Assembly (NCBI RefSeq): GCF_006547045.1
Contig: NZ_CP041242.1
Coordinates: 1,250,001-1,314,000 of the forward strand
Source of the DNA: Lysobacter alkalisoli
Lineage (GTDB): Bacteria > Pseudomonadota > Gammaproteobacteria > Xanthomonadales > Xanthomonadaceae
DNA: 64,000 bases
Direction of reading: 5' to 3'
Part shown: piece after piece, positions 50,245-55,526 of the stretch
Position numbering within the stretch: position 1 is the first letter of the stretch
Layout of the letters: every line of letters starts with the position of its first letter
Notes under the pieces: model-generated
What the model saw: the letters and a program-made list of their open reading frames with translations, nothing else
The model's database searches: none
What the model was told of the DNA's origin: nothing
Translations under genes and position numbers: made by a program

Positions 50245-50308
50245 CAGACGCCGACTGGCGCTGGGGTGGCGCCGCTTTCGGTCCGGCTTATAGATCTGGT
50301 TGTTAGCC
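50229..50308 (+). repeat. attC-like recombination site (integron cassette type)
   Basis: An 80-base imperfect palindrome. The left core is GGTTAAC (50229-50235) and the right core GTTAGCC (50302-50308), complementary at six of seven positions. TAACGACTCATAGC on the left and GGCTTATAGATCTG on the right resemble the L''/L' arms of Xanthomonas-type attC sites, and GGCGC / GCGCC forms the central hairpin. It marks the exact point where GC content falls. No integron integrase is visible in the window. Confidence 0.6.
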
Positions 50309-50437
50309 GGATCAAGTCGCCATAAGATCGAGTCGTATCAAGGGAATAGCGCCCCAAAAATGGCGCTTCGGACAATTTGTATAAGCGGTCCCCAAGGTCA
50401 CGCCAATAGGTCGTTTGCGCTCACAATAGGAATCCGA

Positions 50438-51094
50438 ATGTACATCCAGCTTGGAACCCCTAAAAAACTGTCAGCGCTTCGTGTCGCTCTACAAGATGCT
50501 GCTCATCTCAAGAGAAACACGCAAATCGCCGTTATTGACGATCAAGCCTTTCCAAAAGCAGAGGCATTGCGAAACCACAAGTTCAATGTAGTTGAACTTG
50601 GCGATATCAAATCTGTTGATCAGGTCGCTGCTTATCCGATTGTAGTATGCGATATCCGAGGGGTCGGCCAAGCCCTGAGCTCTGATCTGGAAGGCGCACA
50701 CCTTATCTCAGAGATTAAGAAATCCTATCCAGATAAATTCCTAGTTACATACTCTGGAGCACAGTTTGATATCACCTACAATGAATCTCTTAGAGGTGTA
50801 GATGCGTCAATTGCAAAGGACGCGCCAACTGAGCAGTGGGTGTCCATTCTTGAGCGAGGTCTTGAAAAAGTAACGAATCCAAGAGAGAGATGGATCCGCC
50901 TCAGACGAACGCTTCTTGATCGCGGCGTCGAAATTCATGAGGTCTTCTCGCTTGAGCAAAGGTTCATCAAGGCGATTGAAGCCAAGGACGCCTCAAAACT
51001 AACAACAACCGGAGTCCCGGAAGAGGCTAAAGAGATCGTTGCAGCGTTCGCAAAGTATGCCCTCATTCAGATTATAGAATCGCTTGCCTCATGA
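50438..51094 (+). CDS. Receiver-like (REC) protein without DNA-binding domain
   Basis: A 218-residue cytoplasmic protein. Residues about 29-135 look like a response-regulator receiver: IAVIDDQAFPKAEALRNH with acidic pair D34-D35, strand PIVVCDIRG with the candidate phospho-acceptor D72, the Ser/Thr strand KFLVTYSGAQ, and a lysine in DASIAKDAP. The C-terminal about 80 residues are helical (RERWIRLRRTLLDRGVEIHE), with no HTH, so output is probably by protein contact. Codons are AT-rich compared with neighbours, indicating transfer. The ATG follows AGGA, and its stop overlaps the kinase start by ATGA. Confidence 0.75.
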   Translation: MYIQLGTPKKLSALRVALQDAAHLKRNTQIAVIDDQAFPKAEALRNHKFNVVELGDIKSVDQVAAYPIVVCDIRGVGQALSSDLEGAHLISEIKKSYPDKFLVTYSGAQFDITYNESLRGVDASIAKDAPTEQWVSILERGLEKVTNPRERWIRLRRTLLDRGVEIHEVFSLEQRFIKAIEAKDASKLTTTGVPEEAKEIVAAFAKYALIQIIESLAS

Positions 51095-51897
51095 CTAACT
51101 ATGACAAGCAGAATCGACGCTTTGAGAAGTTAAAGAGTGAGCGAGATGAAGCGCTTGCTGTCTTGCAAAGGTCGGAGGGTGAGCGATCACGCTTGTACTC
51201 AATTCTAGACGGAATCATGCATGAAACTCGCCGTCTCAACTCAGAGATTGCTTCTGCTTGCGAGGAGGTCTCTAAAAGCATTGCAAGCAAAAATTACAGC
51301 CAAGCCTCGCGTGACGCTGAAGATGCGTTCTATTCGTCTGGACTAGTTTCCTCAAGGCTTACCTTCGCTGACTTTGAGATCAACCCTGATTCCATTTCAC
51401 GTCAACCAAGGTACAGTGCAGGGATCTACAAGAAATTCGACAAGGCTAGAAGAATTTTGTTTCGCGCCGCCAAGAGAAAAGGCGTGAATGTCGTAATTCA
51501 AGGTCCATCAAGGAACGAAATTGAAGTTGTTCCAGCATTTGAAATGGTGCCATTTGTCCTGATTGATAATGCGATCAAGTACTCCCCTAACAACCAAGAC
51601 GTGCAAGTAAAAGTTACGGACAATCCGAGCCCGGGCACAAGGGTTCAGGTGGTCATATCATCAGTAGGCCCCATGGTCCCGACGCACGAACTGCCTACTC
51701 TCACTAAGAGAGGACAGCGTGGTAGCCATGCGTTGAAAAGCAACATCCCTGGGGAAGGCATCGGCCTCTATCTCGCTGATACGCTCATACGACTTGCAAA
51801 TGGTCGCCTCGCTCTTTCATCTTCTCAGTCCAGTCTTTACAGCTTCAATGACGTTGGCTACTCCTCCTTTGTCGTAACCATCGCATTCAAGCAGTGA
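51091..51897 (+). CDS. Soluble histidine kinase-like protein
   Basis: A 268-residue protein without membrane helices. An N-terminal coiled coil (FEKLKSERDEALAVLQRSEG) leads to a candidate phospho-histidine H44 in ILDGIMHETRRLNSEIASAC. The GHKL ATPase domain has an N box FVLIDNAIKYSPNN and G box IPGEGIGLYLADTLIRLANG. It has no sensor domain of a known family. Together with the receiver-like protein it forms a complete two-gene phosphorelay in a mobile cassette. Low GC, ATGA coupling. A role in phage or stress response is possible but there is no direct evidence. Confidence 0.8.
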   Translation: MTNYDKQNRRFEKLKSERDEALAVLQRSEGERSRLYSILDGIMHETRRLNSEIASACEEVSKSIASKNYSQASRDAEDAFYSSGLVSSRLTFADFEINPDSISRQPRYSAGIYKKFDKARRILFRAAKRKGVNVVIQGPSRNEIEVVPAFEMVPFVLIDNAIKYSPNNQDVQVKVTDNPSPGTRVQVVISSVGPMVPTHELPTLTKRGQRGSHALKSNIPGEGIGLYLADTLIRLANGRLALSSSQSSLYSFNDVGYSSFVVTIAFKQ

Positions 51898-51939: not shown

Positions 51940-52132
51940 TTAGTGGACACCCTGATCTAACTTCAGGAGTGTCACGATGCCAAAGCTTGGTCTTAGAACG
52001 ACGTATCGATACAGCGACGCCTTCAAGGCTGCCGTTCGTCTCAGCCACTTGCCCGGTGTGTCCGTCCGGGATGTGGCCGATCGGCGCAGGCTGGCACGCG
52101 AGGGCAGATCGCGACAAAGCACATCGACGTAG
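51940..52132 (+). mobile_element. Remnant of an IS3-family element (orfA N-terminus)
   Basis: The frame 51977-52132 encodes 51 residues: MPKLGLRTTYRYSDAFKAAV then RLSHLPGVSVRDVAD, matching the HTH start of IS3-family OrfA proteins. It then jumps to RRRLAREG, as if an internal segment had been lost, and stops at once. An AGGAG site precedes the ATG, and TAGTGGACACCCTGATCT upstream looks like an IS3-group end. There is no OrfB, so the element is dead. Confidence 0.65.
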
Positions 52133-52179: not shown

Positions 52180-53271
52180 CTAAATGAAGGTGATGCGCGA
52201 CAGGGCTGTCAGTCCTCGTGTGTCCGACTGGATCCGGATGCCGCTCGCGGGATCTTTTGCCGCCTTGAGAAGTGGGCGCTTGAGGATTCGATACGGCGAC
52301 CTCCGTATGAACTCCTCGGTCTGTGGCCACGTGACAGTCTGCCCAGCAAAGGCATCGCGCAGCAAGGCCAGCAAGCCCTGATCGTGCTCGACGCTATCGT
52401 CGAGAAGTGTTGCCTGACCAGGGTCGGTCGCGTCGGAGAATCGTTCACCCCCACTACCGTCCACTTTCCATAGTGCGTCTTTCATCTTGTCGATGCCCTG
52501 CGGGTGATTCGTGGCGAAGACGAGGTCGTAGATTGGACGCTGCGATTCATCAAGCATGGAGAAAGCACGAGCGTACTCGGCGCGCCCGCAGACATCAGTG
52601 CGCGAAAGCTCCTCGATATAGAGTCGACGGAGGAAATCGACGCGCGCGTGGCCCGCCAAGTCACGGCCCTCCTGCCAACGTGGCGTACCAAAAATAGCAT
52701 CCAGTGGCTTCTCGAACTCTGGCGCGGCGATGAATCGATGGGCGTAGCCCACCATGAAGTTCAACAGTACTTCGCAGCTTCGAGTAGCCAGCACCCGGCG
52801 TACCAGGTCCATGGTCAGCCCCTTTACGCCGAATGGGTCAATGAAGACGAGCGACGGCGCGAGCTGCTTGCCAGCCGTCGCCAAGTCTTCGAGCGTCTGG
52901 CTCAGGAGCGGCGCGTACTCGCCATGGACGACGCTGGCGGATGAGCCCTCAGGTAGCTGAGCCTTCAACGGTTCAATAACGCTCGCTAGCGTCTCCGAAC
53001 GCTTCTTGTTGGCCTCGATGAACAGGAACATGACCTTGGCCTTGATCACGTGTCGATGCGCATGCTCAATCAGCGCCTTCATCGCGATGACCGGCGAGCC
53101 TTCCTCCCCGCCGGCATAGATGCCTGGTCCGGCAAAACCGTCAAGGAAGAGAACCTTCTGATTGCGCGATGAGATGATGGGTAACCAGGCGTGAAGATAG
53201 CGCCGGAGGATCAAGTGTTTGGCGAGGGTATGAGGCTCGAGTGACCAGATAGTCTTGGAAGGTCGTAACAC
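52180..53271 (-). CDS. tcmP: Three-Cys-motif partner protein, TcmP-like (copy A)
   Basis: A 363-residue protein of the TcmP (three-Cys-motif partner) family, of unknown function. The conserved start PHTLAKHLILRRYL is shared with copy B. VLFLDGFAGPGIYAGGEEG (about residue 40) resembles a methyltransferase motif I, FLFIEANKKRSETLAS motif II, and LVFIDPFGVKGLT (about residue 145) the DPPY-like motif IV. The rest includes MVGYAHRFIAAP, typical of the family. These similarities suggest a SAM-binding Rossmann fold; activity is untested. GTG start at 53271 follows AGGA, nine bases after copy B's stop. Third gene of the operon. Confidence 0.82.
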   Translation of the reverse strand: MLRPSKTIWSLEPHTLAKHLILRRYLHAWLPIISSRNQKVLFLDGFAGPGIYAGGEEGSPVIAMKALIEHAHRHVIKAKVMFLFIEANKKRSETLASVIEPLKAQLPEGSSASVVHGEYAPLLSQTLEDLATAGKQLAPSLVFIDPFGVKGLTMDLVRRVLATRSCEVLLNFMVGYAHRFIAAPEFEKPLDAIFGTPRWQEGRDLAGHARVDFLRRLYIEELSRTDVCGRAEYARAFSMLDESQRPIYDLVFATNHPQGIDKMKDALWKVDGSGGERFSDATDPGQATLLDDSVEHDQGLLALLRDAFAGQTVTWPQTEEFIRRSPYRILKRPLLKAAKDPASGIRIQSDTRGLTALSRITFI

Positions 53272-53280
53272 GGCAAGTTC

Positions 53281-54546
53281 CTAACGAAACAGGAAAAACT
53301 GACGGCGCGGATGGATCTCGTCTAGCAACTGGAGGCGATCCACGTGCTTGCGCTGTCGACCGTGCTGGGTACGCATCTCAATTTCACCGGTCCGGCCGAG
53401 CTCGAACAAGACCTGCTGCACCATGTCCCGGGTAGCCGGTGTTTCGTTGGCAATCCTTTCCAGTAAGGTGCCGACGTTTGTGCCCGCGGAAAACTGGTCG
53501 TGAACCAGCTTGGGCAGGTCGTGGTGCAGCGCGGAGGAGGTCCGCTGCTGCGCAATGTCGCCAAAGTCGAATGTGTACTGAGGCGTTTCGTCCAGCCGCA
53601 CGGGGTCGAAAGCGAGAATGCCTACTCCTTCGGCACCAAAGTGCATGAAATGATTGTGTTCCTGCCAGTGCAGGCGCTTCATCTCGTCGTTAGCTCGTGT
53701 GTTGTTGGCCAGATGCACGAGCCAGTATCCGCGTCGGCTTTGCCGTGGGATTACGAAGAACGGTGTGGCGTAAGCGGCGCCTGTCTGCGGAAATACTTCA
53801 CGCAGTAATAAGGTCTGGATCACGTGCTTGGCGCCATGATCCTCAGCCTTGAGCTCGGTTAGCCGCTCGGCGCTGACCACCTCATCGAACCCAGTTTTCG
53901 CAAGAATTCTGCGGTAAAGCTCGCGGGTTTCCGGTGAGGCGAAGTTCGTCAGTGCATCCACCGCGAATGTCAGCACAATCTCGGCTTTAGGGAACGTCGT
54001 GAATATCGACTTCATGACCGGCAGGGTCGTCTGCGTGAAGCCGTACTGATCGAGAACGAAAATGATGCGGGGTGATCGACGGCTGTGCTTGTATGCGGTT
54101 ATCAGCTGCGCGGCTGCCATATTGAAGTCGAGCTGCGTGACGTGTGTCGTCGGCGCCCATTCATTCTTTGGGCACGTCGCAAGCTGGGCTCGCAGGCTCT
54201 TGATGGCGTCGGCATCATTATCGTTTAGGTGCAGCGTCGCCTCGAGGTCAAAGGGACGATGCATTCCCATTTCGACGCGACGGGTTTGCACGAATGCCCG
54301 GCCGGCCTGCAACGCCTGTCGCAGGATCAAGGGCGACCCGAGATGCGGTTCACCGCTGGATGTTTGGTAAAGTCCACCCCCGCAAAATCCATCGACAACG
54401 ACGAGCCGCAGGCATTCACGTCGGGGATTGAGGCAGAGGATCTGAATGTAGTTCTCGACGTACCGCCGCAGGACACGATGCTTGGCGATGCTGTGTTCGT
54501 CGATCTCAGGCGGAATATCGAACTTCCAATTATAGCCTCGCGCCAT
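53281..54546 (-). CDS. TcmP-like protein (copy B, divergent)
   Basis: A 421-residue paralogue of copy A. It shares EHSIAKHRVLRRYV near the start, RLVVVDGFCGGGLYQTSSGE (motif I-like, D52), LHLNDNDADAIKSLRAQ (motif II-like) and IIFVLDQYGFTQTTLP where copy A has IDPFG. The DQYG change means the catalytic-type proline and phenylalanine are replaced. The C-terminal third (VQQVLFELGRTGEIEMRTQH) looks like a winged-helix segment. Two unlike copies beside one DUF5131 gene suggest a heteromeric complex; that is inference. ATG 54546 is 25 bases downstream of the DUF5131 stop. Confidence 0.75.
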   Translation of the reverse strand: MARGYNWKFDIPPEIDEHSIAKHRVLRRYVENYIQILCLNPRRECLRLVVVDGFCGGGLYQTSSGEPHLGSPLILRQALQAGRAFVQTRRVEMGMHRPFDLEATLHLNDNDADAIKSLRAQLATCPKNEWAPTTHVTQLDFNMAAAQLITAYKHSRRSPRIIFVLDQYGFTQTTLPVMKSIFTTFPKAEIVLTFAVDALTNFASPETRELYRRILAKTGFDEVVSAERLTELKAEDHGAKHVIQTLLLREVFPQTGAAYATPFFVIPRQSRRGYWLVHLANNTRANDEMKRLHWQEHNHFMHFGAEGVGILAFDPVRLDETPQYTFDFGDIAQQRTSSALHHDLPKLVHDQFSAGTNVGTLLERIANETPATRDMVQQVLFELGRTGEIEMRTQHGRQRKHVDRLQLLDEIHPRRQFFLFR

Positions 54547-54571
54547 GAAACGCCCCCTGTCTGGACGATGC

Positions 54572-55321
54572 CTAGGCAGTAAGATTAAACCCCGCCGGCA
54601 TCTGATCCCACGTCCTGCCTTCCAGTAAGCGGCCATTAGCTGACTTGGAGCGCTTCTTGCCGTCGGCTCCCCAACCGCCCCACTGCTTAAAGAAGAACGC
54701 TGCGCCCTGATTCTCACACTGCTCGCGGATCGAGTTCGCCCAGGAGGCATCCATAGGACGCGCCTTGGCGCCCGACTCGCCACCGACGATCACCCAGTGT
54801 ATGTCTGTCAGATCGATCTCGCCGAGGTCTTCGAGCAGCGGCTCACACGACAGGAAGCGAATGCTCGCCGGCACCCGGCGCAGGGAATCAATGCGTGGCA
54901 CTCCTTGCTTGCGGTTCTCCACCGATACGCCGAGCCAGGCGTTGGACGGTGCGTTGCGGCTCTCGAAGTACTTGGCCATGCGCTCAGCGCGCTTCGTTAG
55001 AATCTGGTACTGGTGCTGCGGCGTCGCGGCGATAACTTCGAAGACCCGGTCTAGGTAGGCTTCCGGAATCTTTTCGTGGAACAAATCGCTCATTGAGTTG
55101 ACGAAATAGATCGTCGGTTTCTTGCGTTCGAGCGGTTCATTCAACCGCTCCTCCAGAAGGCGCAGGCGAAAGCCCATTCGATACGCCTCAACACCCATGG
55201 CCTTGAGACGTTCAGCCATCACGAGGGCATAACAATTCTTGCAGCCTTGGCTAATCTTCGTGCATCCGACCGTCGGATTCCAAGTTCGGTCGGTCCACTC
55301 GATCTTTGATTGCGTTGCCAC
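54572..55321 (-). CDS. DUF5131 / phage Gp37-Gp68 family three-Cys-motif protein
   Basis: A 249-residue protein of the DUF5131 (phage Gp37/Gp68) family, a radical-SAM-like group with three clustered cysteines. The start SKIEWTDRTWNPTVGC and C20-x6-C27-x2-C30 (GCTKISQGCKNCYALVMAER) would ligate an Fe-S cluster. Further family blocks are YFVNSMSDLFHEKIPE, HQYQILTKRAERM, IRFLSCEPLLEDLG, WVIVGGESGAKARPM and AAFFFKQWGGWG. Substrate unknown. The GTG at 55321 has an excellent site (GGGGAGG). It heads the operon with two TcmP-like genes. A 17-base dyad AGGTC-N7-GACCT at 55351-55367 lies in its promoter region. Confidence 0.88.
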   Translation of the reverse strand: MATQSKIEWTDRTWNPTVGCTKISQGCKNCYALVMAERLKAMGVEAYRMGFRLRLLEERLNEPLERKKPTIYFVNSMSDLFHEKIPEAYLDRVFEVIAATPQHQYQILTKRAERMAKYFESRNAPSNAWLGVSVENRKQGVPRIDSLRRVPASIRFLSCEPLLEDLGEIDLTDIHWVIVGGESGAKARPMDASWANSIREQCENQGAAFFFKQWGGWGADGKKRSKSANGRLLEGRTWDQMPAGFNLTA

Positions 55322-55526
55322 GTGCACCTCCCCATCCAGTGTGCGGCTGTAGGTCGGATCCGGACCTGCATTGTCCAATGTAGGGTGCCATACATTTGGA
55401 AAACCCGGCAAAACCCGGGTCAGAGTGCACTTTCGGATGACTGCTTTTGGCTGTGAATTCAATCTATCGACGCAATAGATGGTCGACCTCGCAAAGAAGA
55501 GTCCGCCAACGTTTTCGCGTGCGGTC

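Follow-up and report, generated by a model that had tools for sequence, protein, structure and literature searches.

Pairs of genes for a DUF5131 protein and a TcmP protein are already listed in the PADLOC library as the candidate anti-phage defence systems PDC-M30 and PDC-M41, a kind that is known but uncharacterised. To our knowledge, neither protein has an assigned chemistry. Here we analyse an operon of this kind in a 64,000-nt stretch of Lysobacter alkalisoli DNA (the window; contig NZ_CP041242.1, positions 1,250,001 to 1,314,000), in which one DUF5131 gene is followed by two unlike TcmP genes, TcmP1 and TcmP2. We propose that the operon is a mobile, DNA-damage-controlled, nucleic-acid-modifying module made of a DUF5131 protein resembling radical S-adenosylmethionine (SAM) enzymes and of methyltransferase-like TcmPs; for this combined mechanism we give a probability of about 0.5. 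We are confident of its anatomical part: which genes are present and linked, how the TcmPs divide into clades, which folds are predicted, and that Peptidase_S24 genes adjoin the operon in part of the loci.

Three groups of described systems frame the comparison. Trm1, whose motif IV takes the form D-P-F-G, acts on G26 of tRNA (guanine N2), and RlmJ acts on A2030 of 23S rRNA (adenine N6). Spore photoproduct lyase (SPL) of Bacillus subtilis, according to an excerpt of PMC3742179, has C91, C95, C98 and C141 together with the catalytic Tyr99, and uses a Cys-Tyr radical path. In excerpts of two further papers, splB of alpha- and betaproteobacteria is predicted to belong to the SOS genes (PMC3323433) and SplB-like enzymes are described in SOS-type operons (PMC3765255). 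On the candidate systems themselves, an excerpt of PMC10855318 gives 68.8% of 32 Pseudomonas aeruginosa strains with PDC-M30 as phage resistant, a correlation only. Tables of expression-changed genes in Sinorhizobium meliloti include the TcmP gene SMa2243 beside the Hna defence gene SMa2245 (PMC12445080), and a table of a second S. meliloti paper mentions TcmP (PMC12429752). DUF5131 did not occur by name in the open-licence literature, in which three papers use the full name of TcmP, 'three-Cys-motif partner'.

The features of the operon, in window coordinates, are the following.

54572..55321, minus strand: DUF5131 (Gp37/Gp68) protein, 249 amino acids; PF07505 371 bits; SPL-like radical-SAM fold predicted.
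55232..55264, minus strand: motif C20-x6-C27-x2-C30, then invariant Y31; conserved columns of the DUF5131 alignment.
53281..54546, minus strand: TcmP1, 421 amino acids, DQ-type, Rossmann methyltransferase-like with a C-terminal winged helix-turn-helix; TIGR04474 176 bits; model pLDDT (predicted local distance difference test) 88.6.
54040..54051, minus strand: motif-IV position of TcmP1, DQYG; its DQ marks the clade of long TcmPs.
53359..53595, minus strand: GMT-like winged helix-turn-helix of TcmP1, residues 318-396; PF22560 E 1e-13, 52 bits, cut-off 27.
52180..53271, minus strand: TcmP2, 363 amino acids, DP-type, methyltransferase-like by homology; TIGR04474 193 bits; PDC-M30A 149.5 bits.
52828..52839, minus strand: motif-IV position of TcmP2, DPFG; its D-P aligns with the D-P of the RlmJ motif in a profile comparison.
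55388..55398, minus strand: CAAATGTATGG, half of a LexA-type palindrome that is intact upstream of DUF5131 in the related locus L104.

An earlier note on this DNA, written from the letters alone, had described three reverse-strand genes with gaps of 25 and 9 bp, and the gene coordinates agree: the order is DUF5131, TcmP1, TcmP2. The motifs that it named are likewise present, namely C-x6-C-x2-C (C20, C27, C30), HSIAKHRVLRRY / HTLAKHLILRRY, DGFCGGG / DGFAGPG and DQYG / DPFG; we take its copy A to be TcmP2 (DPFG) and its copy B to be TcmP1 (DQYG). The GTG start of DUF5131 was chosen by alignment with relatives and by a GGAGG immediately upstream; a longer open reading frame (ORF) from 55633 would overlap an upstream TetR-family ORF (PF00440). 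At E <= 0.001, the source genome contains one DUF5131 match and two TcmP matches, all in the operon. Immediately upstream of the half operator lies a terminator-like element, a 6-nt stem ACCCGG-N6-CCGGGT followed by T's (55403-55420, minus strand).

Family assignments are clear for all three proteins. The PF07505 score of DUF5131 exceeds the Pfam gathering score of 28.9, and both TcmPs lie far above the TIGR04474 cut-off of 53 and share their operon with a three-cysteine partner gene, DUF5131. In PADLOC, DUF5131 matches PDC-M30B (378 bits) and PDC-M41B (371 bits), and PDC-M30A is matched by TcmP2 and, at 65.4 bits, by TcmP1; the locus thus holds neighbouring M30A and M30B matches, as judged by bits and not by PADLOC's own thresholds and distance rules. 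This prior listing suits the defence role that the earlier note had thought fitting.

DUF5131 and TcmP are tightly linked well beyond this genome. TIGR04474 was matched above cut-off in 17 of 297 genomes of a family sample and in 20 of 369 genomes of a class sample. DUF5131 occurs in 31 of these 369, among them all 20 that carry TcmP (Fisher p 1.6e-25, the two counts being assumed to come from the same draw since they share genome handles). A search of a wider collection with 17 TcmPs of the DQ type, that of TcmP1, confirmed 363 relatives, and each of the best 80 loci, which were kept (L102-L181), contains DUF5131. The DQ-type TcmP gene lies within 150 bp of DUF5131 in 70 of the 80 and on the same strand in 71. 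Because a motif-I pattern was used to find these loci, part of their agreement at motif I was built in; motif IV and DUF5131 stood outside the search. A first set comprised the window plus L060-L101, 43 loci in all, of which five are plasmid loci chosen for similarity to TcmP1 (L060-L064) and three recur among the 80. DUF5131 is present in the fetched stretch of 40 of them and absent from that of L072, L081 and L095. A single-sequence scan of genome contigs matched 17 stretches and confirmed no relative. The association is not due to chance, TcmP rarely occurs without DUF5131, and the conserved linkage that the earlier note had made a check on its proposal is upheld by the 80 loci and the 20 genomes. 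In L081, from the genus of the window, pieces of TcmP lie in two overlapping frames near a contig end (7127-8079), in a stretch without DUF5131.

The conserved residues of DUF5131 are those of a putative cluster-binding enzyme. Alignments retained 64 of 73 locus sequences (A3), 52 of 75 (A4), 17 of 32 DP-type TcmPs (A5), 11 of 14 RlmJ (A7) and 8 of 15 SPL-like proteins (A8), the last kept where a CxxxCxxC frame was found and hence biased to CxxxCxxC. In the 53 DUF5131 rows, window included, C27, C30 and Y31 are invariant; C20, and with it the C-x6-C-x2-C spacing, is kept in 52, the lone exception being gapped at the first cysteine, and a fourth cysteine, C202, is also kept in 52. The protein scores 101 bits against TIGR04471 (radical SAM mobile pair protein A, rSAM_mob_pairA), under the cut-off of 355, and is related to that family without being a member. 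An AlphaFold2 model built from 53 sequences has a mean pLDDT of 92.4 and a predicted template-modelling score (pTM) of 0.89. Its top six Foldseek matches in the PDB are all SPL (E 5.8e-4 to 1.3e-3, prob 1.00), followed at E > 0.01 by TIM barrels and some radical-SAM enzymes. The three cysteines sit between the first strands and the first helix, the place expected in a radical-SAM enzyme, with non-canonical spacing. We predict an SPL-like radical-SAM barrel with three cluster-type cysteines, and the earlier note's description of DUF5131 as radical-SAM-like gains from the model, the SPL fold matches and the sub-threshold TIGR04471 match.

Kinship with SPL at the level of sequence was not found: a profile comparison with the eight SPL-like proteins gave prob 0.1 (these eight are only remotely related to SPL, two of them having been scanned and reaching at most 83-84 bits), NCBIfam and Pfam scans of DUF5131 matched no SPL family model, and the resemblance is one of fold only. 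The parallel between the cysteines and tyrosine of the two enzymes is suggestive only, because the fourth cysteine is placed differently (172 residues past the third in DUF5131, 43 in B. subtilis SPL, C98 to C141) and a profile match is missing. The same parallel underlies an alternative that we regard as unlikely, namely that DUF5131 directly undoes a DNA lesion in an SPL-like radical reaction, with TcmP as a lesion-binding or methyl-handling partner, in mobile SOS mutagenesis or repair cassettes. SPL is the best fold match of DUF5131, and the four conserved cysteines and the invariant tyrosine after the third cluster cysteine resemble those given for SPL in the excerpt of PMC3742179; the distant fourth cysteine and the patchy distribution of DUF5131 (31 of 369 genomes) count against repair.

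For TcmP1, an AlphaFold2 model from 65 sequences (pLDDT as listed above) finds Trm1 (3axs, E 4.9e-7) and RlmJ (6qdx, E 5.2e-7) as its best Foldseek matches in the PDB, both at prob 1.00, and after them mainly other Rossmann methyltransferases. PDB sequence searches gave no credible match. Profile comparisons point the same way. The DP-type TcmP profile matches an RlmJ profile of 11 rows (prob 96.7, E 4.5e-10) in an alignment that spans the KH, DxxAGxGxY, GSP, acidic and DP motifs; the DQ-type profile matches it at prob 89 (E 2e-6), and the two TcmP profiles match each other over most of their length (prob 99.9, E 2.5e-32). TIGR04474 also weakly matches proteins of about 280 amino acids in the genome samples. 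All three that were scanned are RlmJ (PF04378, 208-243 bits); they belong to 14 proteins found alike by similarity, 11 of which entered the profile. No PF04378 match was found among the Pfam matches of TcmP1 and TcmP2, and neither DQYG nor DPFG fits the RlmJ motif IV, which is D-P-P/S/A-Y/F in the 11 RlmJ rows. PF22560, the winged helix of TcmP1, is under cut-off in TcmP2 (E 0.033) and above it in gp39 of Gordonia phage Easley (31.9 bits, cut-off 27). TcmP1 is predicted from its model to have a Rossmann methyltransferase fold with motifs I and IV in order, and TcmP2 would be methyltransferase-like by homology. The earlier note had read methyltransferase motifs into both copies and had proposed structure prediction with Foldseek as a check; the TcmP1 fold (Trm1, RlmJ) and the RlmJ profile matches of both types support that reading.

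These relatives raise the possibility that the target is RNA: TcmP would methylate a tRNA or rRNA base, as Trm1 and RlmJ do, and DUF5131 would modify it further, altering translation during infection or stress. Two-step chemistry of a radical-SAM enzyme and a methyltransferase on tRNA has a precedent in wybutosine, and Trm1 and RlmJ are the best structural relatives of TcmP1. The fold of DUF5131, however, points to a DNA enzyme, and the S24-type neighbours, the winged-helix tail and neighbouring restriction-type methyltransferases fit DNA better. We regard an RNA-modifying role as unlikely but, like DNA repair, as a serious rival.

TcmP1 and TcmP2 represent two types that differ at motif IV. 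Over 163 TcmP rows, which include at least four duplicates (L147, L068, L069 and L071 of L145, L102, L104 and L103), motif IV is of the form D-Q-(Y/F/C, once K) in 98 rows, of the form D-P-x in 64 and undetermined in one; the residue after D-P varies between F, Y, K, M, T, W and C. In a tree made by a quick method, without rows shorter than 270 amino acids and the apparent duplicates L147, L068 and L069 (of L145, L102 and L104), a single branch (support 98) sets all 94 DQ rows apart. We therefore take DQYG as the signature of a clade and reject the idea that it arose by decay of DPFG. Within motif IV, the DQ rows keep the D, their third residue is usually aromatic or Cys and the G is usually present; H18, K22, GSP and other residues are invariant over 65 rows. 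A recent duplication giving TcmP1 and TcmP2 is also rejected, as the two are 26% identical and lie on opposite sides of a well-supported branch.

The earlier note had suggested that TcmP2 (DPFG) may be the active and TcmP1 (DQYG) the structural member of a heterodimer that DUF5131 guides or feeds, a model that we weighed with TcmP1 as catalytically dead. The two genes are in one operon, 9 bp apart, and in 35 of the 80 DQ loci the fetched stretch contains a DP-type TcmP as well. The remaining 45 hold the DQ type only in that stretch (the rest of those genomes lay outside the search), the DQ rows form one clade with a conserved motif IV and invariant H18, K22 and GSP, and the DP copies found in DQ loci stem from several separate DP groups. 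In the first set, DUF5131 is accompanied by the DP type alone at 22 loci, by the DQ type alone at 12 and by both at six, one of which is the window. It is thus common for either type to be the sole TcmP seen beside DUF5131, and with all 94 DQ rows carrying a clade signature the active/structural division is not supported; we consider it very unlikely. In our reading of the tree, a core of DUF5131 and DQ-type TcmP may have gained DP-type TcmPs several times, or two systems that share DUF5131 may have merged.

TcmP2 clusters with the DP copies of L102 and L104 (support 99) and next with Easley gp39 (support 89), to which it is 36.7% identical. L102, from Lysobacter ruishenii, has the gene order of the window; L104 has the same genes, with its DQ-type TcmP broken up. 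The middle of that gene, motif IV included, lies on the opposite strand (L104 2706-3453, the same region as in L069), bounded by inverted repeats of 19 nt, 84% complementary and 710 nt apart. The segment may be capable of inversion, or the metagenome-assembled genome may be misassembled here.

Genes linked to the DNA-damage response adjoin part of the family. With a profile built from S24 genes, a Peptidase_S24 gene was found within 150 bp of operon genes in 21 of the 80 loci; the background was four further matches in the 915 kb of flank beyond a distance of 1.2 kb, the near flank amounting to 182 kb. Twelve of the 21 are alike, 193-201 amino acids long and 18-43 bp upstream of DUF5131, and all four of these that were scanned are UmuD-type (NF007621, 127-133 bits, cut-off 110). 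Because these 12 share length and place, independent cases are fewer than 21, perhaps four kinds. In L102 and L104, the two nearest relatives found, the gene encodes a true LexA (TIGR00498, 162 and 163 bits against a cut-off of 111) and is oriented divergently to DUF5131. The intervening DNA carries a perfect 9-2-9 palindrome, TACCATACA-AA-TGTATGGTA, in L104 and a one-mismatch version in L102. The genome of the window encodes two LexA proteins elsewhere (TIGR00498, 166 and 176 bits), one of them with a palindrome that shares the core ACAAATGT. The linkage of DUF5131/TcmP operons to LexA/S24 genes is new in this analysis, in which no literature search aimed at that pairing was made.

The LexA/UmuD-like neighbours of 21 loci also fit the repair alternative, as do IMS-family (Y-family polymerase) matches in two of 124 sampled neighbours and the excerpts that place splB and SplB-like genes under SOS-type control (PMC3323433, PMC3765255). 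On a Burkholderia glumae plasmid (L060 460-9263), an ImuA-PolY-DnaE2 cassette adjoins a short TcmP, DUF5131 and a long TcmP; full ImuA/DnaE2 relatives were found in only one of the loci searched, which counts against repair. We know of no counterpart in SPL to the near-obligate methyltransferase partner, a further point against that alternative.

The setting of the operon is that of mobile DNA. Its stretch has 57-60% G+C and adjoins one of 47-48%, both within flanks of about 65-74%, a base composition in keeping with the island setting that the earlier note had assumed. No empty chromosomal site was found in the genus: the closest counterpart to the flanking LysR gene product in six other genomes is 44% identical. 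TcmP1 relatives occur in 62 of 72,556 plasmid records, each below 60% identity, and 50,697 phage records gave 159 matches for DUF5131, 13 for TcmP2 and one for TcmP1. In phage Easley, the DUF5131/TcmP pair adjoins the immunity repressor and lies two genes from the integrase, between the two, an interval that is a usual place of accessory functions encoded by prophages. A survey of 124 of 204 sampled neighbouring ORFs, made without a random-locus control, was headed by phage integrase (8) and Peptidase_S24 (6) among 106 Pfam families. The PADLOC models matched by neighbours, 25 of 174 being listed, are mainly restriction-modification methyltransferases with at most three members each.

The low-G+C stretch beside the operon contains a two-gene unit matching PDC-M43A/B (50300-51094 and 51091-51897, plus strand, 47-48% G+C), the second gene with a HATPase_c domain; it is probably another candidate defence unit that was acquired separately from the operon. 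Between the two units lies a 51-codon stub (51977-52129, plus strand) whose sequence resembles the beginning of an IS3-type orfA (HTH_Tnp_1, sub-threshold at E 0.012). On a S. meliloti megaplasmid (L063 1-17167), a caspase-family gene and CBASS-like genes (DncV-like cyclase, patatin-like and ThiF-family) lie in one stretch with the DUF5131/TcmP pair.

We propose from sequence and models that the module modifies nucleic acid. DUF5131 would bind a [4Fe-4S] cluster, cleave SAM and carry out radical chemistry on a nucleobase, more likely of DNA than of RNA. TcmP may bind nucleic acid through its winged helix and methylate or present the same base. TcmP1 and TcmP2 would be two separate partners, probably both active, with different targets or reaction steps. 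In the nearest relatives, a LexA-type repressor probably holds expression off, with release upon DNA damage or entry of the element. The most likely use would be in conflict of the cell, or of its mobile element, with incoming phage or plasmid DNA. A bolder form is tentative and, to us, rather doubtful: a mobile, damage-switched system that joins SPL-like radical-SAM chemistry of DUF5131 to RlmJ/Trm1-like methyltransferases and so installs or reverses a new nucleobase modification, and in which the DQ-clade TcmP repeatedly recruited DP-type TcmPs of separate lineages to give three-gene, two-specificity versions directed against foreign DNA.

Several observations weigh against the proposed module. 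The SPL match is moderate (TM-score on the query 0.43-0.57, root-mean-square deviation 5.6-9.9) and lacks profile-level agreement; the TM-score of TcmP1 on the query is only 0.33 for both Trm1 and RlmJ, and these two enzymes act on RNA, which speaks against DNA as the target. The change of P to Q in motif IV means that catalysis by TcmP1 is not assured. Eleven of the 31 DUF5131 genomes have no TcmP above cut-off; five of these DUF5131 matches are short pieces (G327, G359, G391, G404, G618), and in G502 a sub-threshold TcmP piece adjoins DUF5131. TcmP was present in the stretch of two of eight phage DUF5131 loci and absent from the other six, and the neighbour survey offers no control against which to set its counts. 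The link to damage-response genes is seen in part of the family: at 59 of the 80 loci the 150 bp around the operon genes lack an S24 gene, and none was found in the window. There, only the half site CAAATGTATGG stands upstream of DUF5131 (one match, none in 100 shuffles). No copy of the full palindrome with up to three mismatches occurs in the window, and elsewhere in the genome there are two sites with three mismatches, neither at the operon.

Together, the fold links of DUF5131 to SPL and of TcmP to RlmJ and Trm1, and the link of part of the family to LexA-type control, yield a concrete, testable hypothesis and raise the questions of which base is altered and whether DNA damage switches the operon on. 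If the hypothesis is true, radical-SAM base chemistry joins the enzymes of mobile-element conflicts, and the rarity of TcmP without DUF5131 is explained.

The operon resembles four known systems and differs from each. As in PDC-M30/M41, the candidate anti-phage pair of DUF5131 and TcmP, the matching genes stand in one operon; here they are separated by an additional TcmP of the DQ clade, TcmP1, and the PADLOC library assigns no mechanism to the pair. SPL is the best PDB fold match of DUF5131, which resembles it in three cluster cysteines, a remote fourth cysteine and the tyrosine after the third, but has C-x6-C-x2-C in place of C-x3-C-x2-C, 249 amino acids in place of about 340, a fourth cysteine much farther from the third, a TcmP partner and no sequence match at profile level. 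RlmJ and Trm1 are the best fold matches of TcmP1, and the KH, D-x-x-A-G-x-G-x-Y, GSP, acidic and DP motifs of TcmP are collinear with those of RlmJ; TcmP, in contrast, lacks the RlmJ motif IV, has DQYG and a GMT-like winged helix at the C-terminus in TcmP1, and is found on islands, plasmids and phages beside DUF5131. With the mobile SOS cassettes (lexA-imuA-imuB-dnaE2, umuDC, splB), the family has in common an adjoining gene of the S24 autoprotease type in 21 of 80 loci and LexA itself in L102 and L104, whereas its operon includes no polymerase and the window copy has no S24 gene nearby.

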